A DNA stretch of 64,000 nt. Source: Owenia fusiformis (lineage: Eukaryota > Annelida > Polychaeta > Sabellida > Oweniidae). The notes under the pieces were generated by a model. The model ran no database searches. It saw only the letters and a program-made list of their open reading frames with translations, and was not told the origin of the DNA. Location of the stretch: positions 22,449,936 to 22,513,935 of the forward strand of contig CAIIXF020000006.1 in the NCBI GenBank assembly GCA_903813345.2, given 5' to 3'. Made by a program: the position numbers and the translations under genes. Positions 9,540-62,249 of this stretch are shown one piece after another; within the stretch, counting starts at the first letter, position 1; every line of letters begins with the position of its first letter.

Positions 9540-9886
9540 CTATAGTTCATCTTGCATTGAATCTGTTTTTCCATCGTCATTGAGCGGCACGCTAAAAGCT
9601 ATTCTTGGACATCCATTCATGTTCATGCAAAATAGTTTTTGAAGAGTTGAGTCTTTCACCAAATTGAAGCCAACATCACCTCCAAATGTCGACGACCGCC
9701 AGTACAGTGGACTACATATTGGGTTAGACATGAGTCCCTTTACAGAATTGGGACCGCCCAACTCTATGACGGTCTGTCCTAGCATACCTCCATTCACGTG
9801 CCGTTCGAGCAAAATACCAACGTAAAACTCGACAGCGTCAACGTCCCCATAAAGCTGTTCGAGTTCAGTGGCTAACACCTTTTCTC
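9540..9886 (-). CDS. PTGS: COX exon 11 equivalent: C-terminal catalytic region
   Basis: Acceptor CTAG, phase 1 in, ending at TAG. It codes for [13 protein letters not shown], the channel segment [12 protein letters not shown] with Ser530, the conserved ICSPLYW and STFGG, then a short tail ending S-M-Q-D-E-L. It lacks the longer C-terminal insert typical of vertebrate COX-2. Confidence 0.95.
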
Positions 9887-12800
9887 CTAGAACAATCAAA
9901 TTTAAAATAACGATTTTTCTTTTGTTTCGTGAACCTTTTTTTCATAAACATTTCACAAGTTGCTTTATATTTATTTATTTATATGTTTATTTATTTATCT
10001 ATTTTTTATATTTATTTATTTACACATTGCGTGCAAATTAATAAGTTTTTATCTTAAAACCAAAATCAGGTATTTTATACTGAATGCATAAATATTTCTT
10101 CTGGATAAGACTATGTTGTGTCTAAATGAAAGTTAATCGAAACGAAATGAGATGTCATATATTTGAAAGATATATTTTGTCTAACCTGTGAGTTCCTCAA
10201 AGGTTTTATAAACTGGCAAATTGAACCGCTTTCTGTAGTTGTTGAAAGGCTGCATCCGTAATTCACGGCCATGTTTTATGGTTTCTAAGGCAACGTGTAT
10301 AGTATTTTCTGGGTGATTATTAGGTTCTACCTTGAAAATAAAAATTGAAAATATTGATTAACAATTAGTTCTTGTGAAACTGAGATCCATATTCTTTCTT
10401 CATATACTATCACATTATGAATACATAGACCTAATATACTTAGCACCCAAAACGTACGTCATTCTCCTTTTGGTATGTAACAAGGACGGACGTCATTATC
10501 CTTTTGGTATGTAACAAGGACGGACGTCATTCTCCTTTTGGTATGTAACACGGAATATCTAATCAAATTTCACCATTGTAGTGACCAGATTTATATTTGA
10601 TTTTACACTTACAGAGCCGGCTCGTTGTTTCACGAAGGAATCCACCATTTCCTTCATACCGTGTTTCAATGGCATCTCAGCATTAAAAACGTATTGCTGA
10701 GCTGTGTATTTCGTCCCATTGATCTCCAAATCATCAGGCATAAGCGGATGCCAGTGGTACAGATGGTTAAATTCCACAGTAATTCGGTTCTGATATTGGA
10801 AAGGATATCCAAAAAGTAGTTCCGGATTGAAAAACAGCTGAAGGTTGTAATTACTCAAATGTTGAACATAGTCCCTGATAACAATGTTGATGGTCTGACC
10901 TAGATTAAAGAAAGATGACAAAACATGAAGTCACAGATATTCTGTATATTGACATTTTTTGAATTAGTTCTGTTTTGACCTTCAGTCAGTTTGCTAGTTC
11001 CATATATCATTTGTAAACATGACCAGGGTCACAATGGGCATGGTCTGAATGATCCTAAAATAGCTTTTTCAGCCCTCTGAAAATGTGACTGAAAAGGTTG
11101 TACATTCGGAAATGTCATCAAACAGAATATTTGGAATCTTTCAGAACATGTGCCCAATATATGATAGAAGCTTTGGAAAACTGGATTCATTACAAGAAAT
11201 AGAAAAATGAAAAAATGATTTGAAAAGCGCTCTTTTTCTTTAATGACCGCCATTTTCTTACAGACTCCTATCAATTAGAGCTACATATCGGGCACATTTT
11301 CTGAAAAATTCAAATAGAAGTATTATGTTCTATGACCTTTTCGAAATTTTTACTTTTATATATTTTTCATACGACGATCTTTGTACGATTTAGTGATTTT
11401 GAAATAAATTATTTACTTCTATGATAACAAATCGCTTTAAATAACGTAATCCATAATCCAGCGTTTCCTTACCTATAATGATAAGTCTTGTGGTCTGAAA
11501 CAACTGCTCATCAGTCCACTCAGGATGCTCAATTCGCATGACATCACAAACACGATTATGTTCCCGCAACCAGATGGCGGAGAATACCACCAGACCTATA
11601 ATTTATGCTCTACAGGTGTAACAAAACGTACAATATGACTCACACTTAAACTAAAACATGTAGGTTCTAGATCTGAAAGAAAGCAGACTTGTCATGACTT
11701 TCAATGACTTTCATAATTATGATTACCAATAATCTATAAATGGCAATGAATTTCACATTTTATTATTTTACACAATATGATAGAATTAATTGTTCAAAAT
11801 CAAAATATTCGAATTAAATGTTGATATAACATTATTTTTCCTCGTCTCAACATACCTGGTAACATCCCAAAGAACTCATGACCAAGGCCTAGCTTATCTT
11901 CTGGTTTTACATTTGGAGGATATGTCATTGTGACTGGGGCATCTTTCAGTAATGGTGGCCACATCTCACCATTAACCATCTTGGATTATAAAATATGTTA
12001 AAAATACATATGCACGCAATTATCAATTTTTATTGTTATAATATTGTAAATGTTCACGTTTTTAAAGTATTTTATCTGAATAATGTGACACGTTTAACGG
12101 TGATATATTTTGATCCGATTTGATGAAAGGAATCGGATTTTGATTCTATACCTGATACTTTAGCTTTCCATCTTGGAATGTTCTGAGTTTATTCGAGGAT
12201 GCCACATCTGGCCCATATATATGTGAAACATCAATCTGAAAATGTGAAATACTCCAATATGTTACAATATGAAATATCAAAACGATTATCAATTCAAATG
12301 AAACATCTGAAAATGTGGCACATCAAGCTGAAATGTGAAACAACAATCTGAAAATGGGAAATATCATGCAATAGTAAAATGTGAAGCATTATTATAAACA
12401 CATACGACATTGCATTAGTAAAGGCACAGTTAACCTTATTGTGATGCTTTATAAAACACATTTTGTTCAATTGTTGCTATCTTCAGGTTACATGGTCCAC
12501 ATTGTTATGATCGGTTTGGGGTGGATTACACCAAGGACGTCTATCGTCCTTGATTATACCAAATAAAATAGAATTCCAGACAAATTATATCAAAATTACT
12601 CACTCCATGACCTCCCCATTGGAAACCAGGCCCTTTCTTCAAATCAGTCTTGAAGAACATATGACTAAAATGCTGAGCGAAGAACGCGAACAGAACATTT
12701 GTATTGATGGTATCCGGTTTGAACTTGGTCCTCACAAAGAATTTTCGGAAGAGTTCAACATCAGGAAGAGTCTTTGGCCCTGAATATGAATAAAAAAATA

Positions 12801-14710
12801 GTTAATCGTTTTTAGATGACATTCAGATTCAAGGACACAATACACTTGGCAAGCGGGGGGGGGGGGGGGTCGTGAAGCTGAGGAGACTTGTTTGCCGAAT
12901 TTGATGATCACGTAAGCTTATGGGGACCTGCTCAATTCAAAACAGCAATCACTACAATGATTGCACCAGAATCTACTAAAATATAATAGCTAATTGAAAG
13001 CCAATGATAATAGCTAGGTAATATCTTCTAGATTCATACCTTTAACACCCATGGGTGTTGGACAGTCTCTAGGCACAGGAGGCAACGTTCTAGCGTAATA
13101 TGACAAGTTTGCGGCCGACTCCCACGTGACATATTCATGTCCGGATGTAAACAATGGCGGGCTGTCTATCACGCTGTTTCTCACTGAAAGCAAATAATGC
13201 AGCTTTTAGAAATAATAGGTGCAAATGGGACTTTTTGGATATTTTTGCGCATGATGCACACGTATACATTTGAAAGTAAAATTTTTTATCAGAAAACGCA
13301 TGATACCTGAGCAGACCACCACCCCAAATCACATTTTGTTTCAAAAGTGTTTTATCTGTTGGCATACGATGCTTCTTCAATGGTTGAGGAAGATGTATCG
13401 AAACCAGCTGCTTAGCCCATTACTGAGGACATCTCGACTTATGACGATCTCACTTTACTTTATCCGTACCATGTTGAAAACGAATGCTAAATATCTTGCA
13501 TAGACATGAGTATCGACATCTATTTCTGATTTCGAGAGTGGGAAATATTGTTTGTTTTTCATGAATTAAAATGTTTTCATAAAATGTCACTTGGTCCTGT
13601 GCTTTTCAGATTGTAATAATGGATCCTGAAAGGTGGTAGTAAGGGGGCAGGCCCGTAGCCAGGATTTGCCAAGGGGGGGTTCAGTTTTCAAAAATTTCCA
13701 GGGGGGGTTCACTTTGGCAATTTTGGCCCAAATATGGCTAAAATCACTTGAAAAGTGCTCAAAATGGTGAAAAACTGCATGATTTTGAAAGAATTTTTGG
13801 CCAGGGGGGGGGGGGTTCGCCCGAACCCTGCGAACCCCCCTGGCTACGGGCCTGGGGGGTGTTAAATATAGTTTACTTATACTGTGCTTATGCCCTTGTG
13901 CTTTTTGTTGGTCTTTTCCTTTTGGTATTGTAATATCAGTGGCAGTGTAATATCACCCATAAGCGGACACATGTATCTCTATATAAGTATTATTCTTAAG
14001 AAACAAAATGTTTTATTTACCTAGATATACGCTTCTCATGATAAAGTTCCTCATAAAAGATGTGTTGTTGATGATATTCCACATCCATTGGAAGTTCGTT
14101 AGTAAATAGTGAGTTGTATATGGACCTGGCTTTAGCCATAGTTTTATCCTCAGCCAGAAGGTTGCTATCAGAATAAAAAAGCATTGTTTCTTATTATGGT
14201 CTTCGGAAGAATTTAATGTTTCGAAGATTTGTCACATGTTTACAACATATTTGCCCTCTTCATTTTTGTTCCATGGCGCGCCTATTTTCTGAATATTCAT
14301 CCATTTTGACTTTATTTCAAGAAAATGATTTGATTCTAGAAGGTTATCTTGCAATTTGGTTATTAAAAACTTGAGTTCCTTTTTTCCAATTAATTAATAA
14401 ATTTCTGCATCTTAAATCCAAAATTACTTTGACATCTGATCAGATAATCTAAATTTTTCAGAAAATTTGGATCGTAAGGGAAACATAGCTTGATTTGCAA
14501 CATAGCTTCCTGTACATATTAAGTTATATTAATATTTTCCATATATATTTCTATATGCTTGATTATACTTAAGTAAAAGGAACGTACGAATTTCACAATG
14601 GTCTCCATAGTAACCTGTGTTGGCACAATCACAGGTATATTCTTTGAAACCCTGAGTAAGACATACCCCTCTGTTTTCACATGGGAAGGAACAGCAGGGG
14701 TTATTATACT
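9540..14710 (-). CDS. PTGS: cyclooxygenase / prostaglandin G/H synthase (ten exons, signal exon missing)
   Basis: The family converts arachidonate to PGG2 and then PGH2 on the lumenal face of the ER and nuclear envelope. Ten exons join without a frame break to about 565 residues: EGF module with NPCCSFPC and CDCANTG; membrane-binding helices (KLWLKPGP); peroxidase/COX domain. Using ovine COX-1 numbering, visible residues are Arg120 (VRNS), distal haem His207 ([16 protein letters not shown]), Tyr355 (TYPPN), catalytic Tyr385 and proximal His388 (LYHWHP), and acetylatable Ser530 (GGPNSVKG). The C-terminus is Q-D-E-L, an ER-retrieval type tail. Exons on the minus strand: 14588-14710, 14021-14164, 13040-13183, 12604-12779, 12152-12235, 11856-11979, 11473-11595, 10613-10899, 10186-10330, 9540-9886. 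The start-codon exon must lie upstream and is not secure. COX-1 or COX-2 orthology should not be assumed; an independent invertebrate duplicate is possible. Confidence 0.95.
10186..10330 (-). CDS. PTGS: COX exon 10 equivalent
   Basis: 145 bases, phase 0 in and 1 out, with acceptor TTTTCAAG and donor GTTAGA. It codes for the stretch around [20 protein letters not shown], which matches the family Y-R-K-R-F block. Confidence 0.93.
10456..10553. repeat. 34-bp tandem repeat, three copies
   Basis: Units start at 10456, 10490 and 10524; each begins ACGTCATT(C/A)TCCTTTTGG and the last is slightly shortened. It lies in a COX intron just before exon 9 in plus coordinates. Confidence 0.9.
10613..10899 (-). 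CDS. PTGS: COX exon 9 equivalent: catalytic Tyr and proximal haem His
   Basis: 287 bases, the length I recall for the matching vertebrate exon. It codes for [16 protein letters not shown], then [19 protein letters not shown] with Tyr385 and His388. Acceptor AATCTAG, donor GTAAGT. Confidence 0.96.
11473..11595 (-). CDS. PTGS: COX exon 8 equivalent
   Basis: 123 bases, phase 1 to 1. It codes for [13 protein letters not shown] and [16 protein letters not shown]. Together with 11856-11979 it totals 247 bases, the length of one vertebrate exon, so an extra intron splits that exon here. Confidence 0.95.
11856..11979 (-). CDS. PTGS: COX exon 7 equivalent
   Basis: 124 bases, phase 0 in and 1 out. 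It codes for NGEMWPP, the Tyr355-bearing MTYPPNV and [10 protein letters not shown]. Donor GTATGT. Confidence 0.93.
12152..12235 (-). CDS. PTGS: COX exon 6 equivalent
   Basis: 84 bases, phase 0 to 0, codes for IDVSHIYG through KLKYQ. The family S-H-I-Y-G motif and the exon length both match. Confidence 0.95.
12604..12779 (-). CDS. PTGS: COX exon 5 equivalent: distal haem His
   Basis: 176 bases, phase 1 in and 0 out. It contains [16 protein letters not shown] (Gln203 and His207 of the peroxidase site) and ends G-G-H-G. Donor GTGAGT. Confidence 0.95.
13040..13183 (-). CDS. PTGS: COX exon 4 equivalent: Arg120 and membrane-to-catalytic junction
   Basis: 144 bases, phase 1 to 1. It codes for [10 protein letters not shown] (Arg120, carboxylate anchor of substrate and many inhibitors), [12 protein letters not shown] and CPTPMGVKG. 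Confidence 0.95.
13648..13854. mobile_element. MITE with CAGGCCCGTAGCCAGG termini
   Basis: Starts CAGGCCCGTAGCCAGG and ends CCTGGCTACGGGCCTG. The interior is G-rich with runs of 7-12 G. About 207 bases, in the intron between COX exons 3 and 4. Confidence 0.8.
14021..14164 (-). CDS. PTGS: COX exon 3 equivalent: membrane-binding helices
   Basis: 144 bases, phase 1 to 1. It codes for [19 protein letters not shown] followed by the amphipathic run to SVYL. It joins the EGF exon through a Pro codon split by the intron (C, then CA). The open reading in the first frame is a shadow; this is the third frame. Confidence 0.94.
14588..14710 (-). CDS. PTGS: COX exon 2 equivalent: EGF module
   Basis: Codes for the seven-cysteine EGF-like dimerisation module from N-N-P-C-C to GDHCEI. 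Donor GTACGT, phase 1 out. Two in-frame acceptors six bases apart exist (exon start 14710 or 14716); the choice adds or removes two residues. Both demand a phase 1 partner, as in vertebrate genes. Confidence 0.93.
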
Positions 14711-14755
14711 CTGCACCTATATAATTAAGCATAACAGTACACTACATTACAATGT

Positions 14756-21930: not shown

Positions 21931-22874
21931 TTCTTCCCTACTACTGCCTACTTACCTATTTTACATATAACTGTAAAAAGAAATACAATTCGTAAGATGC
22001 CTCGATTTCTATATGAATTTGACGCCATTGTCCGTGAGCCTGTTTAATAGTTGCCCGGCTAGATTTAAGTTTCAGTTTCCGTTTTCGTAAATGTTTTGCT
22101 TTTCCGCTTCTTATGATTATCCTGTCTCCTTAATCTGAAACAAAAATGTTTAATTGGAGTATACATACACGACGTTCAGCACATAGTGGACAAATGAAGT
22201 TTTTTGAATATACAGTATGCATGAGTCTATTGTGGCCTATAGTGTTGGGTGTAAGGGCGTGATCGTCGAGGCTTTAGATTATTTCACAATATCACTCCTA
22301 CTACTGATACACCTGTATGCATTAATTACCGATTAATATATCTATTTTTAAATGAATAAACATGCGAGTAATCTATTTCCGGTAAGGTCTAAAACATAAC
22401 TATGAGCAAACTGACAGAAGAGGAGAAATCTTCCATTTGTAAGTCAGTATAAGAAGGAACGAGTGTAGTGGTCTAGACCCAGGATGAAGAAAAAACCATA
22501 AATAATCTCTATAAAGATGAACAGGATCTACGAAGATGAATTAATTGTACTTTGAGAAATAGGTCAATGTGTTCTTTCATGGTGTGATGAATTATTTTTA
22601 TCTTATTTTTAATAAAAAAAAAATATGTTGTATACACCAAATATGAACGCTTCTTTCCGTGAACACGAGTCGTTTTATTACGCTATATGACCAGCCTAAC
22701 TTAAAATTCCCAATGTAATCCAATAGTATAGTTTCTAATTCCCCGGGTAGTATCGCAAAATCTCGCGAAATCCCGTTTTCGAAAATCTTGGGCCAGAAAA
22801 TCTCGGACGCCATTACTTTTCAATACACGCAAAACAATTTCTCCATCATAATCACAAATACGCAAATATCTACG
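21931..22874. other. intergenic, nothing recognised
   Basis: AT-rich sequence leading up to the SAP-like frame. A possible small minus-strand exon (TTTCTTTTTACAG, 15 bases, then GTAAGT) near 21950-21990 contains a stop and was not called. Confidence 0.4.
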
Positions 22875-23783
22875 ATGAATCGGCAGGAACATTTCCTGTC
22901 TTGGAAAGTGGAAGATCTCAAGCGTTGACTGTGTTACGCGGTATATGGCATACATTCATGGTTGCGCGGTATTCGTGATACGGTTGAATATGCCATACTC
23001 ACCTGCGGTATATGGCATATTCCGCAGGTGAGTATGCGATATTCCGCAGTGAATATGCGATACATTGATTTCAGTGAATACCCGATACTCACCTGCAGAA
23101 TATGTCATACTCACTTGCGGAATATGCCATATACCGCAGGTGAATATGACATATACCGCAGGTGAAAACGTGATACAGAAAGCCTTGATTTGATTGGTTG
23201 CGAAAATCGACTCTAAATGTAAAACTACGCTGGATTACCAATATAGTCAGTGCGTCGAGTACTAATATATGAATCCTGGTTTGATTGAGAACGTTTATTA
23301 CACGAGATTGGTGACTGATACTTCTGCTAAGTTAATATATTCGATACACAGTACTGTTGATTCAGTAATCATTATAATAATTTATAACGTTTTACTTGTT
23401 CGTTCAATCGATGTAATTGACAATTGCGTACTTCCGTATCGCGTTCTCATTGGTTAGTATGTATGCCATATACCGCAGGTGAATCTGTCATACATCGCAA
23501 GTGAATATGCCATATTCGTTGCGGAATATGACATATTTTTGTATCGTGTTTACCGCGTAACAGACTGGGCGAGCGGAAAGTGACGTGTAGTGGATACAAC
23601 AAGCCAGAGTTGGTGAGGATTGCCGAGGCAGTTTCCAAGCTGGATCTTCCGAAAAATCCAGATCTGCAAAGTGCAGTTCTTGCAAACAGATCGTCCCTGG
23701 ATCGCCTCCGTAGGCTTGGATTTAGAGAAGATCCTCTCAGGCTATTATTATTTTATTGGATGGGATATTTCACAAATGCTTGA
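22875..23783 (+). pseudogene. SAP-like domain reading frame interrupted by an element
   Basis: ATG at 22875 reads MNRQEHFLSWKVEDLKR and then hits the 631-bp element at 22932. Directly after the element the same frame continues with LGERKVTCSGYNKPELVRIA, then KLDLPKNPDLQ, until a stop at 23781-23783. The L-x(n)-S-G-Y-N-K-x-E-L-V pattern resembles SAP DNA-binding modules or the SAP-like leader of some transposon-linked proteins; this is inference from pattern only. Removing the element and one target copy leaves a continuous frame except for one TGA at the junction, where family members might have Trp. It may be a dead exon or a mobile-element fragment. Confidence 0.5.
22932..23562. mobile_element. 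TGTTACGCGG element, inverted copy
   Basis: Begins TGTTACGCGGTATATGGCAT and ends TACCGCGTAACA, flanked by GACTG at 22927-22931 and 23563-23567. It is 631 bp, in the opposite orientation to 21271-21925. TG...CA ends and a 5-bp duplication also fit a solo LTR; the 12-bp terminal inverted repeat argues for a MITE. Confidence 0.85.
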
Positions 23784-24289
23784 TTTAATTTTAAATGAAT
23801 ATGCCATGACCCATGATCTTGACGAGATATTACTTAAACGAAAGCTTGCAGAGCTTGTCTATCTTCAGTAATTCAATGGGGGGGGGGGGCTTCAATGAGG
23901 TTGGATAAATCGTTTATCATGTCGCTTGTATCATGGTTATCCTGGCATTGTGAACAACCACCTATACTTTCGTACAATAAATACCGATATGCGATACAAA
24001 AAATGTCATGAAGATTAAATTAATCTCAGTGATAAGATACATAAAATAATTACTACAGTGTCAGTTGCAATCTTCCTTCCTGCTTCGTCAGAATTTCCCG
24101 CTTCTTTCAATGCATCCTTCTAGCGAGGACAAAGATTGATTGATGGGAAAATTATGCAGAAAGTCACAATTTCTCATGGGAGGAACACCTGATATATACA
24201 GAGTGATCCCTAAAATTGCAACCCTCTTATTTTAAAAGAACAACAAGTGCAATTATGATGAATCGTTTTAATTTTTCAAGAAATGTGTA

Positions 24290-28606: not shown

Positions 28607-28644
28607 ACAGCAGGCGCCTGTTCAATTATGAGTGATATTGAATA

Positions 28645-49800: not shown

Positions 49801-52800
49801 CACCTTTAACATTATGCCGTCTATCAGTTACTTCCGTTCCTCTAATGCTGTATTTCCTTGTCAGTGACGTTTTGACGTTCGCAAATGTAATATATGGCGT
49901 TATTTCGACTAAGTAGAAACCCAATGCTATTCCCTATTCAATACCTAATTGTATTTGTCAATCCCTAGGCTATAAGGCAAATGTATAATGTCAAAGAGAT
50001 CACATAATGGGGCAAAGGGAATCGATGTCTATAGATCAAAGTGGTCTCCATGTCATTTTAATGTGCACTGTATGTTCAACATACCTCAGGTTATATAACA
50101 TCATTTCATCATTTTCTATACCCGGTGCGTACTTTATACTTTTTACAATGTTGCTTCTTGTGCTGAACTCAATCTAAAAACAGAAATGCATTCATTGATT
50201 CAGATTTTTAACTGTAAATTTGCATTTGTGTTTTCACAGCCTGTGTATCATAAGTAAAATTTTTTGCTTTCTTAATTGCCATTTCTGTTTTCTCATTTAG
50301 TGGATACACCAGATCCTTACGTACGGCTGCGTCTGCCCAACTCACCCGATGGACGTAGGAAAACGATGCACTACGACAATGAGATAAACCCTAAATGGGA
50401 AGAGAGCTTTCGCTTCTATTTGGACACTGACAAAAATAATACTCTTTGTACGTTTCATATGTATAGTGAAGTATACAACAGTTAATTGTGGTAAAGTATA
50501 AGTGGGGTATAGAGGCCCCAGTGGCCAATGAGATCTCTTTTTTTCGTAGCAACTCTTGCGCCAAATATAGAACTGGTACAAACACTTACATAACACGAAA
50601 TTGACTCCAGGCAATTATTTCAATTAGAGATTTTTTGGGGTTCTTTTGAATTTGTTTATGTTGATGGTTTCCATTCCGTTTTTCTCATTATGTGCACTTA
50701 TTATTACGCTATCAGTAAGTTAATAAATATACGAGTACAGTATTTACATCATAAGGCTGGTCGCTTTAAGTGGTTTTCCAAGAAGCTGCACTATATGGAG
50801 TCAGGGAATTTCAGTCATACAAAGTAGAAGCTTAAAGGGAGAATTAGATCTAGCGAGCAAGCCAAACAAAAGTTGTTTCAATTTTAAAATATTTTTGGCA
50901 CATATCACTCTTTTTCATGTCTATTTTCTAAGAACCTCAAAGTGTGTTCTATGTGTAATATTTTGAGTAAAATTTAATCAATTGTCTCTACGCGTAAAAA
51001 GTTTCATTTAGTGTACTTGCCATTTACAGAGAAAATGAATGAACTATTTCTGTTTATTTTTTGGAAAGGTTTCAAATATGCTTTTTCGGTCTTATAACAA
51101 TTAACAGAATAAAATTTCCGTTCATATATTGTTGCACCATAATCATAGAATCTCGGTCTACCAATACTTGAAATACGGCAATAGAAAGTGTTAAATGTGC
51201 TTTGGTATGTTTTTCAAATGGTGCTACAATAACCAATCAGTATACACAGATTCTAGCAATGGTATAATAATATATGTTATTCCAGACTTGGATCTGATGG
51301 ATGCCAATGTCATTTCTGATGAAGTCATCGATACACAAGAATTCAAACTCAACAATTTAGAACCTGGTCGTGCTGAGCATATTACGTTTAAATTTAAAGA
51401 GGTAATTATCAGCTAAGACTGAAATTCATGCTATTAAGGTCTCCTCATATCTGAACGAATCAACTAAACGTAATCTTTGGATAAATTGGATAAAGTGTCA
51501 GTGCTGACGATTGGGAACGTAAACTTGCGAACCAAAGCGCACCTTTGCGAAACCTTCCGAAAGGGTACTTCAGCATACGAATGCCCAAGCAATGTGTTGT
51601 GTATACTGTATACATATATACTAATGGGAATGGATTTTACTCAAGTCCTATTCTCAAATACACATAAGTTGACGTCGGTTTTTTTTCGTTCATATGCGAG
51701 GAGGCCTTTTTCGTTTTACATACATGTAGATACTTAAAAACAATTTATAACATGATAAAAGCCATGCATTTGTGTTCAAACTGATCTTTACATATTTATT
51801 AATTTTTTATTTCCAGTCATCAGAGGTGGATGTCGATTTGAAATTGGTTTGAGTAAGTTTTAATTCACCAGTATTCATCTTCCCACGCTCGGTCATTACT
51901 GCATTCTCAACAAAGGTGACATCAATATCAAGACAATCATTTCTAAACCAAAAGACACATCTTGGCATTCTACATCAATCTGGTTTATTAAAAGATATAT
52001 GTATGATATCATATGATTTGGGAATTATAAGTGTGCACTAACACCCGGTACGTACACTTGACCCCGCTTTTTCAATTTAATGAGCCAGACAATTTTAATT
52101 ACCCTTTGCATTCGTTCGACCGACATCACTTCTTAAAAGAGAGCTTCGTCTTCAGTTTATAACAAGACTCTGCGCGCAGGGTAATTTTTAATAGTACAAA
52201 CTAGAAGAACAAATACCCAGATCGAGACTCTTTTAATATCTCATTTATAATTTAGGACAGAACCCCCCGACACTGTACTTCACGTTACCGTTGAGACAGG
52301 AAATGACATCACTAAAGGAGGATGTATAGCAGATATGAGTACGTATTCAATTTCTTCTTTATATAACATTTCATATAATAAGGAATTGCAACTTCTTTTA
52401 CATTTGTAAACGATTAACAAGCCAGCTTCTTTGTTAGATTACATCTGGTACATGTTGTTAATAACGGATATTAAATATCAGTTGATGCGACACCCGCGGC
52501 ATATTAGAATGCTTTTGTGCCGTAATTGTCATGCTAAGTGTATAATATTATATTTCAGTTGATACTCCCGATCCTTATGTGCAACTGAGAGTGCCAGCAT
52601 CTGTATCAGGTCGTAAGAGAACAGCTTACAAGAACAATGATGTCAATCCAGTGTGGAACGAAAGTTTCAAGTTCACGTTGGATCAAAATAAGAAAAATAA
52701 ACTAGGTACGCACAGATCTTTGACTTGGCATCAAACCGTTGAGTGTATTTCAAGAGGTTAATTTCAAGAAATTCCATATTATTAAATGATATAAAACGTA

Positions 52801-55800
52801 TGGCTAAATGTGTTTTTTTCTGAAAATAAACATTTTCCTGCGGAATCGATAAGCACAATTATAGACCAAACTCATTAAAAATGAAAAATGATATCAATCA
52901 AATACATTGAAGTGATCCACAAGTCTGGTTATATTTTTTAATGATACCTAAACATAAAATATGTCAAAATAAAAAGCCCATCATTCACATGTATACTGCT
53001 TTGTGTTCCAGAGATTACTCTAATAGATAAGAATATTGCATTTGGTGATGAGATACTTGGAGTGGAGGGATATGACCTGGATACATTGCCACTAAACGAA
53101 CATCGCAATATTGAAATAAAATTCACCAATACGTCAACAGTCCATTTAAAACTTAGAAAAACTAAAGAGTAAGTACAGCCTTTGATAGGAACTAGTTGTG
53201 CAAAGACTTAAAGCCCCCGGGCAAAGTTTGGAAATATTGTAATCGTTGGTGAAAACGGAAAATTTGAGTAATTTCTTATTTGATAATTTGTAATTGCACA
53301 TCTGTATCCATTCAATATTTACTTTTATGTCTATTCTTATTTTCAGGGAGCATAAAGGCTTGCGTTCCAGTCTTGCTCTTTGTGACGAAGAGAAAATGTT
53401 CCAGTATGCGCGCAGAGAGAAGATATTTCACAACATGCAATACATCTTGGGCGAAGACGCCCCTTCAAATATTAGCGAAGTATGTTTACAAAATGTATAG
53501 TTGTAGCTCTATTTTGGATTTCAAAACGAAACCGAATTAGTTTTAAGGCAAAATTATTTATTTATTGTGATATTGTAGTTTTTTATTCATTTATTCATGA
53601 ATTCATTTTGATTCATATAATTCAATTTTATACCCCATTGTAGAGATCGAGTCCAACATAAAATTTAAACTATAACTTGAAGTATATTGTTGTGGAAAAT
53701 ATTCCTTTAACAAAAATCTCTTTTGCTTGTGTATGATTTTCTTAGGTTCCTCATATAGCAGTACTGGGCTCTGGAGGTGGTTTCAGAGCTATGGTTGGAT
53801 TGAGTGGTGTATTCAAAGCTTTATCAGACACCAAGATACTTGACATGGTGGAATATTGTGCTGGGCTCTCAGGCTCATCGTGGTAAGTAAATAAACATAA
53901 CTAGCAAGATCAACCATATTGTATTTAGATTATTCAAGAATTTCAACTGTTTAACATTCAATAAACGATCGTAAATCTGACAAAATGAGTGGAGAGGGGG
54001 AGGTATGATTTATGCTATTTCAATTTCAACTAATCTTGCTGCAATGATTTTTTCATGAGAAAGTTCACTAATTACGCTAAATGAATAGATGCATGGTATG
54101 GTAAACTCTGTCGGGTCTTATATGATTTTTTAACTGATACCCTCCCGCAACGTCACCAGCTTTCAAAAGTCAATATGTTTGCTATAAATCAAGCAGTGAA
54201 TGAGTCAGTTGCACCTCTTTGAATAGGTACATCTTAGAAATCAGTTCAAAAAAGTATAGAATACCTAATAGATTTCAAGATAACGTGTACCATGGTATAT
54301 ATTTATTTAGCATTTGAAAAAATAAATCTTCTATGAGAAATCATATGGTTGATCTAGTTTGGGGTTTTATTGTGTTGAATTATTCTCAACACATATTGCA
54401 CACGTCTGATCTGATAATGCGTATTTATGAGCATATTTTATACATACATATATGGTACTTGTAAATGTGCGAATTTTAAATAAATAAAATTAGTAATTAA
54501 AAAATTAAAACTAACATGCAATTTTTTATCTATCATATTAAAGCACGAAATGACGATTGAATTATTGTGCAGTGAAAAAGAGGGTTTATTTTTAGGTATA
54601 TATCTCAACTATACTCCCACAAAGACTGGCCTAATATCAAACCAGGCAAACAAAATCTAGAGCTACGCCAACGTATCGAATCTTCATGGACGAAACTCTT
54701 AATAACGCCAAAAACCATGTACAAGTACATATCCAGTATTATTTCCAAACGTCGCCAGGGGCAACCAGTCAGCTTCACCGACTTCTTTGGCCATTTGATA
54801 GGAGAAACTCTCATAGGAGATGTAAGTTTTAATATTGAATATCAAGAGTGTAACATTTTTCTATTGTGATTATATTAATAAATCGAAAAACGGATTTTTA
54901 TAATAAAAATTAAGAATTTTTATGTTGAAATTACATGAACTCAATCTCTAAAAAATCACTGGCCTCGAACCTATAAGTGTTATTTTAATGTTATTTTCTC
55001 ATGGAATAATCTTGAAGTCGACGTTAAGCACCCTTAACCATCCACCTCAAAGAGATCACCATAACAACAGTTGGTGTGATGGACTGTAACCTTAGTTGTG
55101 AAGTGTAATGCATGAATAAAGGTATTTCATATCCCAATGACTATCTTGTTACAGAGGATGGACTGCAAGCTGTCTGATATGGCTGCCAAGGTAATTGATG
55201 GCCAAGCCCCGATGCCTCTCATGACGTGTCTCCACGTAAAGAAACATGTGTCAGCAATGGTCTTTCATGGTGGGTTGGATCTGAGCTAGCTATAACAAGC
55301 CATTACTACACTTCCTTTCATAAGTTTGTCAACCGGCAATTTTCATTGGATAGCACTTTAGTAGCATCTTTAGTAATTATCCCAACGAACGAAGTTCGGT
55401 AGGGATATAGTGAAGCCGTCCGTCCGTCCGTCAGTCCGTCAGTCCGTCCGTCCGTCCGTCCGGAAGATAACTCAAATATTAAAGAAACATGTGTCAGCAA
55501 TGGTCTTTCATGGTGGGTTGGATCTGAGCTAGCTATAACAAGCCATTACTACACTTCCTTTCATAAGTTTGTCAACCGGCAATTTTCATTGGATAGCACT
55601 TTAGTAGCATCTTTAGTAATTATCCCAACGAACGAAGTTCGGTAGGGATATAGTGAAGCCGTCCGTCCGTCCGTCAGTCCGTCAGTCCGTCCGTCCGTCC
55701 GTCCGGAAGATAACTCAAATATTAAAGAAACATGTGTCAGCAATGGTCTTTCATGGTGGGTTGGATCTGAGCTAGCTATAACAAGCATCTTTAGTAATTA

Positions 55801-58800
55801 TCCCAACGAACGAAGTTCGGTAGGGATATAGTGAAGCCGTCCGTCCGTCCGTCAGTCAGTCAGTCCGTCCGTCCGGAAGATAACTCAAATATTAGTTGAC
55901 GGATTTTCTTCATATTTGGTGGAAAGATGTATATTGATGAATAGTTTTACGCAAAAAAAAACTTTTTCAAGATGGCCGCCGCTTTAAAAATGACGGGACT
56001 TCTTCTTAAAAATCATAAATTTTTCATTCTAAACCAAAGTAATTAATATTATTGTTTGAAATTTTGGTAGTATATTCGCAACATCTATCTATTTCACATA
56101 TATTCCGTGTTATTCATCCTGACCCCCAGGGGTCGTGTATGGGGGTCAGGAAAACAGAAATTTTCGCTAATTTTTAGATCTTTCTGAAGTATAGCTTTAT
56201 TATACTCAAATGAAAGGCAATTAAGAGTAGATTGCAAATATTGTATCTTTTTTCTGATTCGAGCCTCGTAAAATTCAAAATGGCCGTCTAATGTACGATT
56301 TCGCAATACTTTTTCGATCCCTTCAAAGTATGGCTATATAATACTCAAATTGAAGGAATTTTGGAGTAGATCACAATTATGGTATTATTTGTCAGATTTG
56401 TACCTCAGAAAATTCAAAATGGATTTTTTCAAGATGGCCGCCGCTTTAAAAATGACGGGACTTTTTCGCAAAAATCATAAATTTTTCATTCTAAACCAAA
56501 GTAATTAATATTATTGTTTGAAATTTTGGTAGTATATTCGCAACATCTATCTATATCACATATATTCCATGTTTTTCATCCTGACCCCCAGGGGCCCGTG
56601 TATAATAATGGTCAGGAAAACAGAAATTTTCGCTAATTTTTAGATCTTTCTGAAGTATAGCTTTATTATACTCAAATGAAAGGTAATTAAGTGTAGATTG
56701 CAAATATTATATCTTTTTTCTGATTCGAGCCTCGTAAAATTCAAAATGGCTTTTTGATCCCTTCAACGTATGGCTATATAATACTCAAATTGAAGGAATT
56801 TTGGAGTAGATCACAATACACTGTATTATTTTTCAGATTTGTACCTCAGAAAATTCAAAATGGCTGCTTTGCAGGAATTCGCAATTCTAAAATCTAAATT
56901 TTTCAATTTTAACCAAAGTAATGAGTATAATTGATTGGAATTCGGTAATTGATATTCTGTTCGTTGGGATTTGCTACTCCGCGGAGTTGCCATTATTGTT
57001 ATTTTACTAATTTTAACAGGGTCAATAATTTTTTACCCTGCGCGCAGAGTCTAGTTAAGATGAAGGTCTCTTTTAAGAAGCGAAGTCGAAATATTGCAAA
57101 GGATAGTATTTTTTCGGCGTAGGCCTTGCACCTGCACCTGCACCTGTAATTATAACTTGTTTTGCACTGGTATAAATATATGAAATAAAGAAAACAGACT
57201 AAAATATGCTTCGATGTGCCCAAGTTATCAATCACATTTAACGTTCCATATTTATAAAACAAGGGCTTCAACAGAATGTTGTTGACTATATTTTGTTGTT
57301 TACATTTCAGAATGGGTTGAATTTTCGCCATTTGAAATCGGAATGCCAAAATATGGTGTGTTTATGAAGCCCCATCATTTTGGGAGCAAGTTTTACATGG
57401 GTCGACTTCTGAAAGAACACAACGAGCCACCATTGCATTTCTTACAGGGTGAGGATATAAAAAGCGACATCTTTTAGTGGGTTTCTTTGAAATGGTGGAC
57501 ATAGAGTATTTTTGTTAAACGTACATTGTAGTTGTTCAGTTTTTGTTCAGTGACATGGGGCTTATGTGTTTTGAACTCCAATGCATACAGCGGGTTTGTA
57601 ATGCTGGGTATACAAAAGGGCAGCGAGACCTGAGGGCAGAGGCCATATATAAAACTCAAAAATCAAATTACGTCGGCCTTGTGGAATATCCCTTGCAAAC
57701 AGAGATATTTTTAGGTAAAATACCAGTTAAAAATGCCAGATTACTTATTGTTCTCGGCCTTCCTTAATTTATTTATAATATGTTTCTTCTACAGGTATCT
57801 GGGGCAGTGCATTCACGATTCTGTTCAAACGACTTTTAACGACGAGTGATGCGACTAAGAAAGACCCAATTCAGCTGATGAGAATGGATTCTCAGGATGA
57901 GAGAATGGATATGGGTAAGTGTTAAGTATGCTACTGACGTAAAAAATTCGATATTTAAATATTGTATTGCGAGAAAATGAACTTCTGAGGGGTGGGCAGT
58001 TAATAATCTTTCAGTTTCTTAAACATGTTCTTCAGGTGGGATTATTAAATCACAAAACTAGTAAAATAAAGGTTGTGAATAGAATAGAAGACAAAATAGT
58101 TTTGTGATTTGTAGTTCGATATAATTTGATATTTTTCTTATACTTTTTCGACATTAACTATTTGGAAAGAATGTCACATGGGGAAGAGCTTTGTATTCAG
58201 TTTATTGTTTTTATTCTTAGATTCTGCAGTTTCAGGTATGCATGAAAGCCAACTTTCTTATTTAATTTGCTTATTATGTATATCTTATTTAATTAGCATA
58301 TTGCTTATTGTGCTTCTCCCTGCAATTGTGCAGTTTGTAATGTGAAATGCATGTATAGTGTATACCACCATCATTGAAATGTACACCATGTACATGTACA
58401 CATGAACATGTACATCATGTACACCATCATTGATCCACAAGCCTTCTTTTTTTCAAAATGTTGTATTCCCTTAAATGTTTAAAATTGAAGGCTTTCCCAG
58501 ATCCCCACCATATTAGCGAAAACTCTGGTCCAATGGATGGTGCTGACATTAATATATGTCAATATATAAATGCATACTGATAAACATGTACCATGTGTTA
58601 CCATATGTTAAGGTACATTGTCAGTGATGTGTATGGCATTTATTTAATATCATGCCAATGTGATTTTAGTAATAGATATTTTGTTTTATCCACTCATAAT
58701 ATCAGTTAACTAGAGTTTAAGGCGTTTTGTTAACAAATGTAAATTTTTGCACTTATTGTTTGAATTTAAATTGAGTCTTTTATATCGCAATTGCAGACAC

Positions 58801-61800
58801 AGCTATAACTAATGATGCTACTGTTGACACAGATGACGAGGAATCAAGTGATGCGAGTGATAGTGATACTGAGAGTGAACTGGATGATGATGATGATGTT
58901 GAAGACCTTCTGGTCAACAACGACGGTGTCAACTCTGAGAGAAAAAACGAGTTCTTTATCGAGATGGAAAATATCGAAGAAGCAACTAATGATGCCCTTC
59001 ATTCAGATGAAACCAGTAGTGATAGAGATGACAATCCAAATGACAATGTTAAATCAAATGAAAACATACCTAGTAGTGCTAAAGATGAAACCATATCAAG
59101 TCCCACATCTGCTACAAGTCAGAGTACAAACCCAGCAGAAATATATAAACGGACATCCAGAAGGATGTCTCTAATGGGCAAAGTAAAACCTGTACCTCAA
59201 GGCCCAACTGTGAAGAAGCTTCGAAAACAGCAATCAAGCTCTCAGAAAAAGTACAAGAGTAGAAGTATGTGGCAGACAATGCTTATGTCAATGTTTGAGA
59301 AAAGCGAATTGTTAAGTACAAGAGCTGGACGAGCAGGGCTTATACATAACTTCATGAGAGGACTACAAGTAGAGAAGGTCTACCCATTCTCACCGTTTTC
59401 TCCTACCACGCCATCCGACCAAAGTAAATGTTCATTTATTTCATTTTCAAAAAGCGATACTGAAATAGGTATAGTGGCAAACGTAAATCACGAAGAGCTA
59501 AATAATAAAGCCGTGTGCCCTTATTGTATGTGGTAAACGTAAATCACCAAAAGCTAAATAATAAAGCATTGTGCCATTTGTTACCATTTCATTTCAAGCG
59601 TTTGTTTCTCTAATTTCAGCCGACTTTAAGTCAATATTTGAAGAGTATGCTACCGATATGAAGAGGCTGTATATGGTAGATGGCGGACTGACTTTTAATT
59701 CTCCATATCCCTTAGTTCTACGGCCACAGAGAAAGGTCAACCTGATCCTGTCATTTGACTTCAGCGCTAGAGATTCTGATGATGCTCAACCGTTTAAGGT
59801 AGGATATTGGTCAATATATCTGGATATTTTAAATATGTTCTTTCTATTGCAAGAGAGCAAATGGGTACATTTCTCCTACCTAAATACAAGGCAACTTAAT
59901 GTATACCGATTCATTACTTAAGCCCACGACCCTTGGCCATTATTAGTATGAATGGTTTACCTTACTTAACTACTACACCTACACTTAAAACCATGTGGAA
60001 ATACAACCAAGCAGATACTCATATGTTAGCAATAACTAATCATGATTAGAACAATTTATTTGCTACCATTTCTTTAGTAACTACCAAAATAGAGACTCTC
60101 TTACAAAAGATTTTACCAGCTTTTTACTCGAAATCATAAGAATCATATTCCCGACAAGTTGCAAAAATTAAGGAAAATGCAAGACCCTGGTTTAATAGCA
60201 AACCTTCCCATGAATTTGCCAAGAAAGATAAACTTTATCAAAGATTTCAACATCTGAACACTGATCAAAATTACAATGCATATAAGATCAAACTTATGTA
60301 AAATCTTGATTTGTGACGTTAAGGTCAAATATACAGATTCAATTATTTTCCACATATTTGATTCTGAAGAAAAATTCTCTAGCATGGTAAAAATGGTAAA
60401 AACTTGACAAAATTGAACAAACATAACATTAATTTTCTCTTTTTTATCAATATTTGTATGATTTCAATACTTGTATGACATTATGAAGCCCGACATACAC
60501 TCTACTATACTTGCATTTAGTGTTCATGAGCAACCCATTTGGCTTATAAATAATGATTATGTGACTTGTTCTTATTTGTCTGTTCCTTATTATTGGTTTA
60601 TTGGATGACCGTTAGATGTTAATAAGGTACTTTCAAAAATATACTAAATAATACAATTAGACAAACAGAGTATCTTATATTATGCATTTCTAGGGGTAAG
60701 ATATAGTAGAGTGACATAGGCCTACACCAATGGGGCAGAGTTCCACTTGCCTGATTAAGTCACACCGTGTCCCTATCGAGTTCCGCAAACCTCTTTGACT
60801 TTGCAACATGGAGTCCCATCGTGCCCCATTTGTGTATGTTGGGCCCATTGATCTTTTGAGAACGAAATAATAAAGCACGTATGCCATGCAAATATCACCA
60901 ATCTTATCTAACTTATTTTATCGAGTTAAAATTTTATGCCTTAGCTTAGTATCAAAACGAGTATGGCCTATACAACCGGTATGCTCATTCCAGGAACTCC
61001 TTCTTGCCGAGAAGTGGGCCAAAATCAACAGGGTACCATTTCCAAAAATAGATGTCTCTAACTACGTAGACGAACCACCAAGAGAGTGTTATGTATTCCG
61101 GAATGACGACATTCCTTACTGTCCTGTAGTCATGCACTTTTGCCTTGTAAATAACGAGTTCAAGTTTTACAAAAAGCCTGGTAGGTATCATAACGAATTT
61201 TTTGTTGTATTTAAGAAACAGAATTTTGATTGGAGGTTTGTCTTGTTCTGCTGTTATTTTAATTACTAAAGAATTGTTGAACTGTTGTTATCCCCTTGCC
61301 ATTGATTGAATGATAAAGGCACAAGACTCAATGAATTGTAGGGTGATTTATCAACGAAAGTTTTGTTTCCTGGCTTTGAATGAGAGCGACAGCATGAATT
61401 TAAAGTCTAAGATAAAAGACATGAATGGATCAAATCATCTTCAATTCATTAAGTCGTGTACATTTCACACATTGCAAAAGATTTCGCACAGTATTACTTA
61501 TTTATGGATTTGAGTGATTTTAGAGGCTAAATGGTCAAAACTAGTTCAACACTAACGTACAATTTGACATTTGACCGGCCTGTATTAGCCCATGCCTTGC
61601 TATTCCTTATGATACTATTTACATGTTTTCACTTAACTGCCATGAACGTGAAATTGTGAAATTGACGAGGGTAATAAATTTCAACGAATCTAAAAATAGC
61701 CTAACCATGCTTTGTTGTAATTTCAAGAATGCTAATTATTTGAAATACTGTGTTCTGATTGGCTGGAATATGATATATATTGCCTATGTGCGAATGATGA

Positions 61801-62249
61801 TTTAGAATTCTACCTAATCTTTGGAAAAGAATGGACATCAGTTATGTTGTTGATATCACAATAAATGTTCACACATAGCGTAGTACTATTCTTAATGACT
61901 TAAAACTGTTACAGGAGTTCGACGCGAGACGAAAGAGGAGACGGACTTTGCCGACTTCAGTTTATTTGACGACCCAGAGGCACCTTACTCAACCTTCAAC
62001 TTTACATACTCAAACAAATCATTTGACAGACTTACTCAACTAACCGAGTTCAACACACGTCTCTGCGTGGATCGCATACGAGAGGAGATTCTCAAATGCA
62101 TTGAGAATAAAAAATCTGGTCAGCGAGCCCAAATGTCGATGAAAGACATTCCGAGATTACGTCGTATGATGTCTAAAGACAATGCTTCACTATTGGAGTC
62201 ATATATAAAGGAAGACGAGGAATCTAATACTTCCTCCCAGGTTGACTAA
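40842..62249 (+). CDS. PLA2G4: cytosolic phospholipase A2, group IV, with two C2 exon sets
   Basis: The family moves to membranes on calcium and cleaves arachidonate from the sn-2 position. Exons: 40842-40851, 41509-41554; C2 set A 47839-47948, 50301-50447, 51286-51401, 51817-51852; C2 set B 52256-52338, 52559-52705, 53012-53168; catalytic part 53347-53479, 53746-53882, 54596-54821, 55155-55269, 57311-57448, 57795-57914, 58221-58235, 58797-59423, 59620-59798, 60994-61180, 61915-62249. Visible: GSGGGFRAMVG (oxyanion Arg), GLSGSSW (nucleophile Ser), VDGGLTFN (catalytic Asp), SFDFSAR, and YPFSPFSP at the place of the MAP-kinase Ser505. Skipping set A gives an open frame of 884 codons; using A plus B would give about 1020 but set A ends in TGA as sequenced. 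Human PLA2G4A is 749 residues with one C2. Which human paralogue it is closest to is not certain. Confidence 0.93.
41143..41270. mobile_element. hairpin MITE (GGCGCCCGGCCGATTGAGT family), copy 2
   Basis: TTTGCTCCGATCCATCGGCC on the left and GGAGCAAATGTGACC on the right, with long pairing arms. It lies in the first cPLA2 intron, beside a G-rich stretch (41060-41110). Confidence 0.8.
41509..41554 (+). CDS. PLA2G4: cPLA2 exon 2, N-terminal linker
   Basis: 46 bases between GGTTTCAG and GTAAGT, phase 1 in and 2 out: GKPALVKRLASEASF then a split Glu. Phase 2 fits both C2 set A (47839) and C2 set B (52256). Confidence 0.65.
41812..41895. repeat. hairpin in cPLA2 intron
   Basis: CCATAAATGTGGGGTTATTT and its exact complement flank a loop of about 35 bases. 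Confidence 0.75.
42063..45525. mobile_element. 3.5-kb unit with about 200-bp inverted ends
   Basis: The left end reads ATAGACTGTGGACTACTCTG, CTTTTCATGGAAGGTCACAC, GGGCACTTTCTGGGTAGTTG, GTAGGGGTGGCAGA; the right end (45300-45525) carries the complements in mirrored order. It encloses the 43867-44741 element and about 1.5 kb of unique AT-rich DNA with no recognisable transposase. It sits in cPLA2 intron 2. Confidence 0.65.
43867..44741. mobile_element. candidate element with CTGGGGACAATT ends
   Basis: CTGGGGACAATT at the left and AATTGTCCCCAG at the right, 875 bases apart. The interior is not foldback and has no family-like frame. Only the ends support it. Confidence 0.45.
45636..45783. mobile_element. 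hairpin MITE (GGCGCCCGGCCGATTGAGT family), copy 3
   Basis: ATGCCGTGGTCACATTTGCT at the left and AGCAAATGTGACCACGGCAT at the right; the GCGCCCGGCCGATTGAGT arms pair. Confidence 0.85.
46111..46253. mobile_element. hairpin MITE (GGCGCCCGGCCGATTGAGT family), copy 4
   Basis: ATGCCTTGGTCACATATGCT at the left and AGCAAATGTGACCCAGACAT-like DNA at the right end of the same fold. Fragments of further copies flank it at about 46040-46096 and 46288-46306. Confidence 0.82.
46717..47510. repeat. tandem-unit element with GGTACGAT ends, copy 2
   Basis: Starts ATCGTACCTAAATAAAGGTA and ends TTTAGGTACGATATTGTT. It has about five units of some 140-150 bases containing CGATTCCAGGAAAACCACTT, GAAGTTCTAGAGCTGATTA and CGGCCATCTTG. 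Same family as 18811-19330. Confidence 0.85.
47839..47948 (+). CDS. PLA2G4: cPLA2 C2 set A, exon A1
   Basis: 110 bases, phase 2 in and 1 out: FDPFQVFEVRH, LLYVTVKCGRNISKG and KDL. It corresponds to the first beta strands of the human C2 domain (start near its F-I-D-P-Y-Q). Confidence 0.9.
48310..48770 (+). repeat. dispersed repeat, copy in cPLA2 intron
   Basis: Inverted relative to 8790-9240; the shared blocks include TCGCCACCAGGTGGC, ACATGGGGTCTATGGGGAAT and TGTAGATTCCAAATATGACA. Confidence 0.7.
50301..50447 (+). CDS. PLA2G4: cPLA2 C2 set A, exon A2 (calcium loop 1 and 2)
   Basis: 147 bases, phase 1 to 1: MDTPDPYVRLRLP with calcium-binding Asp residues, and NEINPKWEESF. It has the same length and phase as exon B2. 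Confidence 0.93.
51286..51401 (+). CDS. PLA2G4: cPLA2 C2 set A, exon A3 (calcium loop 3)
   Basis: 116 bases, phase 1 in and 0 out: LDLMDANVISDE, with the LMDAN calcium-loop motif, through EHITFKFKE. Confidence 0.9.
51817..51852 (+). CDS. PLA2G4: cPLA2 C2 set A, exon A4, ending in TGA
   Basis: 36 bases after TTTCCAG: SSEVDVDLKLV then TGA directly before GTAAGT. It is homologous to the last strand in exon B3. By homology it should leave phase 2 (GA before the donor); one T fewer in the GGTTTGA run would restore that. Real stop, sequencing error or decayed exon cannot be told apart here. Confidence 0.7.
   Translation, partial: SSEVDVDLKLV
52100..52183. mobile_element. 9-bp-TSD mini-MITE, copy 2
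   Basis: TACCCTTTGCATTCGTTCG to TGCGCGCAGGGTA, 84 bp, flanked by AATTTTAAT and ATTTTTAAT (8 of 9 match). It lies in the intron between C2 sets A and B. Confidence 0.8.
52256..52338 (+). CDS. PLA2G4: cPLA2 C2 set B, exon B1
   Basis: 83 bases, phase 2 in and 1 out: TEPPDTVLHVTVETGNDI, TKGG and ADM. It matches A1 from LLYVTVKCGRNISKG onward. Confidence 0.88.
52559..52705 (+). CDS. PLA2G4: cPLA2 C2 set B, exon B2 (calcium loops 1 and 2)
   Basis: 147 bases, phase 1 to 1: IDTPDPYVQLRVP and NDVNPVWNESF. All predicted calcium ligands are kept. Confidence 0.93.
53012..53168 (+). CDS. PLA2G4: cPLA2 C2 set B, exon B3 (calcium loop 3, last strands)
   Basis: 157 bases, phase 1 in and 2 out: EITLIDKNIAFGDEILG through VHLKLRKTK. 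It corresponds to A3 plus A4 without the intervening intron. Confidence 0.92.
53347..53479 (+). CDS. PLA2G4: cPLA2 exon, start of catalytic domain
   Basis: 133 bases, phase 2 in and 0 out: LRSSLALCDEEKMF and QYILGEDAPSNISE; LALCDEE is the family entry to the lysophospholipase-like fold. Confidence 0.95.
53746..53882 (+). CDS. PLA2G4: cPLA2 exon with oxyanion Arg and nucleophile Ser
   Basis: 137 bases, phase 0 in and 2 out: VLGSGGGFRAMVGLSG and CAGLSGSSW. The Gly-rich loop plus Arg and G-L-S-G-S form the active site (human Arg200 and Ser228). Confidence 0.97.
54596..54821 (+). CDS. PLA2G4: cPLA2 catalytic exon
   Basis: 226 bases, phase 2 in and 0 out: YISQLYSHKDWP, LLITPKTMYKYIS and QPVSFTDFFGHLIGETLIGD. 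Confidence 0.96.
55155..55269 (+). CDS. PLA2G4: cPLA2 catalytic exon whose 3' end is triplicated
   Basis: 115 bases, phase 0 in and 1 out: RMDCKLSDMAAKV and PLMTCLHVKKHVSAMVFH. The donor GTGGGT at 55270 is copied again at 55513 and 55756. Confidence 0.94.
55238..55888 (+). repeat. 243-bp tandem duplication copying an exon end and its donor
   Basis: The unit starts with AAAGAAACATGTGTCAGCAA at 55238, 55481 and 55724 (exact 243-base spacing). Copies 1 and 2 are complete; copy 3 loses about 80 bases after ATAACAAGC. Each unit holds 32 coding bases, the splice donor, intron and a (CCGT)n run from the adjoining element. Confidence 0.93.
55379..56970. repeat. element with ATCCCAACGAAC ends and tandem body
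   Basis: Begins ATCCCAACGAACGAAGTTCG and ends GTTCGTTGGGAT. After (CCGT)n it holds two units of about 450 bases with TTCAAGATGGCCGCCGCTTT, TTGAAATTTTGGTAGTATAT and CTGACCCCCAGGGG. It is organised like the GGTACGAT elements (short inverted ends, tandem units, GATGGCCGCC motif). Confidence 0.75.
57034..57105. mobile_element. 9-bp-TSD mini-MITE, copy 3 (inverted)
   Basis: TACCCTGCGCGCAGAGTCTA at one end and TTGCAAAGGATA at the other; the flanks ATAATTTTT and GTATTTTTT match 7 of 9. It is the reverse orientation of copies 1 and 2. Confidence 0.65.
57311..57448 (+). CDS. PLA2G4: cPLA2 catalytic exon
   Basis: 138 bases, phase 1 to 1: EWVEFSPFEIGMPKYG, FGSKFYMGRL and EPPLHFLQ. Confidence 0.97.
57795..57914 (+). 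CDS. PLA2G4: cPLA2 catalytic exon leading into the acidic loop
   Basis: 120 bases, phase 1 to 1: GIWGSAFTILFKRLL then a polar, Met/Asp-rich run. Confidence 0.95.
58221..58235 (+). CDS. PLA2G4: candidate 15-base microexon
   Basis: TTATTCTTAG, then ATTCTGCAGTTTCAG, then GTATGC. Phase 1 in and 1 out, adding D-S-A-V-S without breaking the frame between 57914 and 58797. Skipping it is also in frame, so it could be optional. Confidence 0.5.
58797..59423 (+). CDS. PLA2G4: cPLA2 large exon: acidic/Ser-rich loop and phosphorylation site
   Basis: 627 bases, phase 1 to 1. It opens with an Asp/Glu/Ser-rich run (DTDDEESSDASDSDTESE), continues with a Ser/Asn/Lys-rich disordered stretch, then RAGLIHNFMRGLQ and VYPFSPFSPTTPSD. 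The S-P motifs match the MAP-kinase site of vertebrate cPLA2-alpha. The loop is longer than in the human enzyme. Confidence 0.93.
59479..59575. repeat. 56-bp tandem duplication in intron
   Basis: AAACGTAAATCAC(G/C)A(A/G) followed by AGCTAAATAATAAAGC occurs twice, 56 bases apart, just after the donor at 59424. Each copy includes AATAAA. Confidence 0.75.
59620..59798 (+). CDS. PLA2G4: cPLA2 exon with catalytic Asp
   Basis: 179 bases, phase 1 in and 0 out: DFKSIFEEYATDMKRLY, MVDGGLTFNSPYPLVLRPQR and LILSFDFSAR. Asp in VDGG corresponds to human Asp549; the following residue is Gly rather than Ser. Confidence 0.97.
60994..61180 (+). CDS. PLA2G4: cPLA2 exon
   Basis: 187 bases, phase 0 in and 1 out: ELLLAEKWAKINRVPFPKID, CYVFRNDDIPYCPVVMHF and KFYKKPG. 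Confidence 0.96.
61915..62249 (+). CDS. PLA2G4: cPLA2 terminal exon
   Basis: 335 bases, phase 1 in, TAA at 62247-62249: ETDFADFSLFDDPEAPYSTF, NFTYSNKSFDRLTQL, then QRAQMSMKDIPRLRRMM (near the Ser727 region of the human enzyme) and an acidic tail ending S-S-Q-V-D. Confidence 0.96.

Follow-up and report, generated by a model that had tools for sequence, protein, structure and literature searches.

The window analysed here, a 64,000-base stretch of the genome of the annelid Owenia fusiformis (G000:C6:22449936-22513935), carries a cyclooxygenase (COX) gene on the minus strand and a cytosolic phospholipase A2 (cPLA2) gene on the plus strand as divergent, immediate neighbors, with 25810 bases between their recognized coding exons. 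The cPLA2 enzyme releases arachidonic acid, which COX converts toward prostaglandins; to our knowledge, consecutive enzymes of one pathway are rarely kept as neighbors in animal genomes. We consider it probable that this head-to-head pair was inherited, most likely from the bilaterian ancestor, and that it held together while its neighbors scattered, with shared regulation as the likeliest reason. We directly observe the adjacency and orientation of the two genes in Owenia, the presence of COX and a cPLA2 on the same contig in other animals, and the kind of cPLA2 copy that is linked. An earlier note on the window, made from its letters alone, had proposed that the linkage was kept or ancestral; this is now well supported by the molluscs in which both genes share a contig and by the head-to-head human pair (PMC3905862), and the claim of ancestry is stronger than that note could know.

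The head-to-head pair in Owenia

The COX gene has 11 coding exons, spanning 22028 to 9540 of the minus strand; their borders are GT-AG, and their phases agree. Exon 1 (21956..22028, minus strand), which encodes the signal peptide, MASNSYRNRGILRIVFLFTVICKI and the first base of a glycine codon and matches the N terminus of the public Owenia fusiformis protein P0001, lies 7.2 kb upstream of exon 2; exons 2 to 10 (ten exons, exon 7 being in two) occupy 9540..14716 of the same strand, with the stop codon at the low end and a C terminus reading ...QDEL. The 566-amino-acid model is 100% identical to P0001, and it contains an An_peroxidase match (4.9e-52) and an EGF-like module. Residues 30-582 align to the solved COX-1 6y3c_A (1.3e-223), in keeping with a heme peroxidase domain that is accompanied by an EGF-like module and a membrane-binding region, and the catalytic and aspirin-site motifs line up with COX-1 residues; we take the aligned residues to be Arg120, His207, Tyr385, His388 and the aspirin-site Ser530. 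By its domains and aligned catalytic residues, the minus-strand gene is predicted to encode a prostaglandin G/H synthase (COX). It is single copy: a genome search with P0001 found no second COX in Owenia, the remaining matches being weak (best E value, 1.8e-6). Among the best 120 COX matches, Arabella (an entry without a contig) is the sole named annelid besides Owenia, and COX may have been lost or have diverged in many annelids.

For the cPLA2 gene, 13 plus-strand exons (52256-62249) in consistent phases encode 860 amino acids plus the stop codon, with one C2 domain and the entire lipase domain in frame. Three exons (52256-52338, 52559-52705 and 53012-53168; 52256..53168, plus strand) encode the C2 domain that we call C2b (C2, 9.4e-16), the second of two at this locus, and exons 4 to 13 (53347..62249, plus strand) encode the catalytic part, with the motifs GGGFRAMVG, GLSGS and MVDGG (PLA2_B, 3.1e-67). 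The public Owenia protein P0121 is 100% identical to the model over 97% of its length, shows a C2 domain (6.3e-13) followed by PLA2_B (3.1e-67), and matches the solved cPLA2 structure 1cjy_A at 2.3e-197; GGGFRAMVG, GLSGSSW and MVDGGLTFN of the window gene align with 1cjy. We take the corresponding cPLA2 residues to be Arg200 in GGGFRAMVG, Ser228 in GLSGS and Asp549. By domain order and the aligned motifs, the plus-strand gene is a putative group IVA-type cPLA2.

A further C2 domain, the N-terminal C2a, is encoded upstream (exons 47839-47948, 50301-50447 and 51286-51401; 47839..51401, plus strand; C2, 2e-14) and is closed by a probable small exon (51816..51851, plus strand; SSEVDVDLKLV) with a TGA at its donor. 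The two C2 exon sets are mutually out of frame at this probable joining exon, and the TGA together with the frame difference would explain why P0121 starts inside C2b and does not include C2a. The exon with the start codon was not found in the window, and coding begins at or before 47839. C2a is 45 to 51% identical to 21 of the 35 C2 domains of other cPLA2 proteins compared, and C2b 27 to 46%; the two are sisters in the C2 tree, as expected from a duplication in the Owenia lineage. More than one C2 match was seen in a single entry, P0122 of Branchiostoma belcheri, among the 119 listed proteins with a C2 match, and P0122 may be a fused gene model. Further downstream, there is a tandem array at 55237-55786 (243-base unit, 2.3 copies, 100% matches) in which the 3' end of exon 7 of cPLA2 recurs along with its splice donor; it is a recent duplication within the gene. 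The Owenia genome contains at least three cPLA2 loci, the other two lying at 24.54 Mb on C6 and at 32.13 Mb on C12. The former (C6:24539650-24541650), 2 Mb from the window copy and closest to it, has one exon match interrupted by an in-frame stop, with LFSGGGY replacing LGSGGGF, and is perhaps a diverged or decayed duplicate.

These exon models bear out the divergent arrangement that the earlier note had read from the letters, with COX on the minus and cPLA2 on the plus strand. Its inner coordinates were wrong: the proximal edge of COX was placed at 14.8 kb because exon 1 had been missed (coding starts at 22.03 kb), and that of cPLA2 at 40.8 kb, where the first recognizable coding exon lies at 47.84 kb. 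For a single COX gene to adjoin one of three cPLA2 genes by chance, among the 26966 genes counted in PMC9977687, the probability is ~2e-4.

Linkage in other animals and the linked cPLA2 copy

We assessed linkage from a database in which every protein cluster carries a name and the size of its longest contig, scoring equal sizes within one species as the same contig. Equal sizes very probably do mean the same contig, and Owenia bears this out, with P0001 and P0121 both on C6; clusters may hold many sequences, so that name and contig could in principle stem from different members. The lists comprise the best 120 matches of each protein search and are a sample rather than a full survey. Among the matches listed, COX and a cPLA2 share a contig in 10 of the 19 invertebrates for which both proteins are placed: Owenia (40838847 bases), Haliotis cracherodii (41868944), Saccostrea cucullata (408325), Mactra antiquata (32142164), Mytilus trossulus (103707636), Dreissena polymorpha (111411237), Mya arenaria (56306838), Mercenaria mercenaria (74526284), Littorina saxatilis (49992114) and Bradybaena similaris (96078044); in one case, Saccostrea, the shared contig is 408 kb long. 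This bears on the concern, raised in the earlier note, that the pair might prove unlinked in related invertebrates, and on the strength of same-contig linkage in molluscs we reject a purely local rearrangement in Owenia. The nine species without linkage are Potamilus, Pecten, Gigantopelta, Solemya, Branchiostoma lanceolatum, Biomphalaria, Candidula, Liolophura and Physella; the misses in Potamilus, Candidula and Physella say little because their scaffolds measure ~1.2 Mb or less, and the two Biomphalaria contigs are near-equal (47424052 and 47122645 bases) and might belong to different assemblies. For vertebrates with PTGS2 and PLA2G4A both placed, the two share a contig in two of three species (Latimeria and Eublepharis), and PTGS1 and PLA2G4A in neither of two (Eublepharis and Varanus).

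To see which copy is linked, we built trees from a chosen subset of the listed cPLA2 proteins (67 sequences, or 79 once peptides from exons at the other two Owenia loci were added), leaving aside unnamed transcript entries and most vertebrates. In all of them, the molluscan proteins form two clades, A and B, with split support for A of 91 (205 columns) and 100 (742 columns), and for B together with Tubulanus and the Owenia C12 copy of 97 and 100, respectively; the pairing of both Owenia copies on C6 has a support of 100. Since full-length trees group the window copy with arthropod cPLA2, we call it "non-B" rather than A. Whichever placement applies, Owenia has one B copy, on C12, and a COX-linked copy that is not B, so the duplication of cPLA2 predates the split of annelids and molluscs. 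A non-B copy lies on the COX contig in 9 of 13 species, and a B copy does so in 1 of 14 (P = 0.0012 by a one-sided Fisher test, a value that describes the contrast and is no clean test, because species share history). In Owenia the linked copy is non-B, and in eight linked molluscs—the gastropods Haliotis and Littorina and six bivalves—it belongs to A; in all seven nonpanpulmonate species with both kinds of copy placed, linkage involves the non-B copy and never the B copy. Together with the trees, this contrast argues for a shared ancestry of the linkage, with amphioxus and Chanos as exceptions and with adjacency seen in Owenia only.

Several observations weigh against this reading. (i) Among the matches listed, Branchiostoma lanceolatum COX and cPLA2 lie on different contigs (22385587 and 23752511 bases), as do PTGS2 and PLA2G4A in the teleost Chanos. 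(ii) Outside Owenia, linkage is mostly at the scale of chromosomes and not adjacency, so that we infer, rather than see, the orientation and closeness of the molluscan pairs. (iii) Mytilus trossulus has a second COX (P0025) on another contig. (iv) The four non-B misses, in which clade A copies lie off the COX contig, are all snails that we take to be panpulmonates. (v) Pecten, Solemya, Gigantopelta, Liolophura and Potamilus have B copies only among the matches listed and provide no test of A. (vi) In Bradybaena similaris, COX and a clade B cPLA2 (P0062 and P0188) are on one contig and their locus tags differ by 20 (BsWGS_09056 and BsWGS_09076), and its clade A cPLA2 is on a different contig; re-linkage or rearrangement in land snails is possible. 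(vii) The Owenia C6 copies fall inside A on 205 columns (support, 86) but with arthropod cPLA2 on 742 columns (68 to 80), where the joint group stands next to molluscan A at 58 to 61.

Surroundings of the pair

Within the interval between the recognized coding exons (22029..47838; 25.8 kb), a candidate for shared regulatory DNA, we found a LINE reverse transcriptase remnant (32844..34911, minus strand; three overlapping open reading frames [ORFs], two with RVT_1 matches of 3.5e-21 and 0.0028), a mariner-like fragment recognized by eye, tandem repeats, and ORFs without a Pfam match above the cutoff. No host gene was recognized among the 18 of its many ORFs that were scanned against Pfam, where matches other than RVT_1 (Nab2, PUS7L_N and DUF4738) all stayed below the cutoff; to this extent, the statement of the earlier note that no other recognized protein gene separates the pair holds. 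Across the window, no Rfam family reached its gathering score, and no relatives were found in viral_contigs or genome_contigs.

Beyond the pair, local gene order has largely been lost. Of three usable markers, TPR lies on C1, ODR4—which we take to be the homologue of C1orf27—on C6 at 29.25 Mb, 6.7 Mb from the pair, and CDC73, presumably a human 1q31 gene, on C6 at 9.51 Mb, 12.9 Mb from the pair. Since C6 makes up 8.2% of the assembly and ODR4 and CDC73 are far off on it, with TPR on C1, linkage at the level of the chromosome is partly kept and the local order otherwise scrambled, while COX and cPLA2 stay neighbors. Phosducin (C5 and C2) and TROVE (C5 twice and C6) are multicopy and were therefore not used. 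In turkey, the order given in PMC8470100 is HMCN1, PRG4, TPR, C10H1orf27, PDC, PTGS2 and PLA2G4A; TPR, C10H1orf27 and PDC are not beside the Owenia pair, where TPR, ODR4 and the phosducins are located elsewhere. The ten flanking ORFs scanned include none of the vertebrate PTGS2 neighbors, and yielded a sub-threshold gag-like match, a 7tm_1 match and an SPX match. Two open stretches on the minus strand (2376-3551 and 5973-6536) belong to a protein that resembles an SGNH-type hydrolase by eye (GANSEYFSH and GEFATND), with no Pfam match save a sub-threshold EF-hand.

Origin and retention of the pair

The closest known system is the vertebrate PTGS2-PLA2G4A locus (human chromosome 1q; turkey chromosome 10), where the same two families adjoin (PMC3905862 and PMC8470100). 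In human cells, according to PMC3905862, COX-2 and PLA2G4A are head to head and 149 kb apart—compared to 25.8 kb in Owenia—and their promoters are in contact by chromosome conformation capture. The same paper reports that small RNAs acting on a COX-2 promoter RNA activate both genes. For mouse macrophages, one set of acquired enhancers has been assigned to both Pla2g4a and Ptgs2, within one topologically associating domain (PMC6341744). Vertebrates also have PTGS1, which is off the PLA2G4A contig in Eublepharis, whereas Owenia has one COX. We found no report of COX-cPLA2 linkage outside vertebrates among the matches listed in the open-license literature; as far as our searches show, what is new is how far back the linkage reaches and that it is confined to one kind of cPLA2 copy, the vertebrate pair being already known. 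Ancient microsynteny under cis-regulatory constraint, with neighbors kept across phyla, is an established class, whose cases mostly join a developmental gene to a bystander; the Owenia pair differs in that its two genes represent successive steps of a single pathway.

We propose that COX and a cPLA2 were already neighbors in the ancestor of annelids and molluscs or an older one, most likely that of all bilaterians. Before annelids and molluscs separated, cPLA2 had duplicated; the B copy lies on a different chromosome, and the other copy remained with COX. PTGS2-PLA2G4A would be the vertebrate form of the pair. Enhancers in and around the interval would drive both promoters, so that release and use of the substrate rise together. 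Given what has been published on human and mouse, we regard shared regulation as the most likely cause of the survival of the pair; the simplest extension of the mammalian data is that such enhancers acted on both genes in the ancestor and continue to do so, an extrapolation for every invertebrate, and it is on these grounds that we infer that the two genes are regulated jointly in Owenia and that selection has retained the pair. We are more tentative, at somewhat less than even confidence, about the fuller proposal that the pair is a bilaterian-old regulatory unit held by enhancers for more than 500 million years, in which only the cPLA2 copy that kept the enhancers stayed with COX as prostaglandin supplier and the B copy was freed for other lipid tasks.

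A serious rival, though in our judgment a less likely one, is that an ancestral pair survives without any regulatory bond, merely through the slow pace of rearrangement in Owenia, many molluscs and vertebrates. The Owenia assembly has 12 chromosome-scale scaffolds with 43% repeats and is reported to retain ancestral linkage groups (PMC9977687); ODR4 and CDC73 are still on C6, in line with a partly conserved chromosome, and the pair is off a common contig in several lineages. Against this reading, none of the three vertebrate neighbors checked is near the Owenia pair, so that adjacency is not the general rule there, as far as three markers tell.

That the two genes were instead joined independently in vertebrates and lophotrochozoans, or locally in Owenia, seems to us quite improbable. 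The lack of linkage in amphioxus among the matches listed, the Bradybaena COX beside a clade B copy, which could be a second, independent linkage, and the position of the Owenia window copy not strictly inside molluscan clade A on 742 columns would all fit such convergence; against it, a non-B copy is linked in an annelid, two gastropods and six bivalves, and the Owenia genes have the same head-to-head orientation as the human ones. We give hardly any credence to an assembly artifact in the Owenia contig, in favor of which we found nothing: the window contains no N, it lies inside a 40.8-Mb contig and is continuous with flanks that also lack N, and molluscan assemblies, whose linkage a misjoin in Owenia cannot explain, have both genes linked as well. 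We therefore reject the misjoin considered by the earlier note.

If the inherited, co-regulated pair that we favor is indeed bilaterian-old, the contact between the COX-2 and PLA2G4A promoters in human cells would be a remnant of an ancient arrangement and not a vertebrate invention, and Owenia, with its one COX gene, would offer a clean system for finding the ancestral control DNA. The linkage likewise points to the invertebrate cPLA2 that deserves study as prostaglandin supplier.

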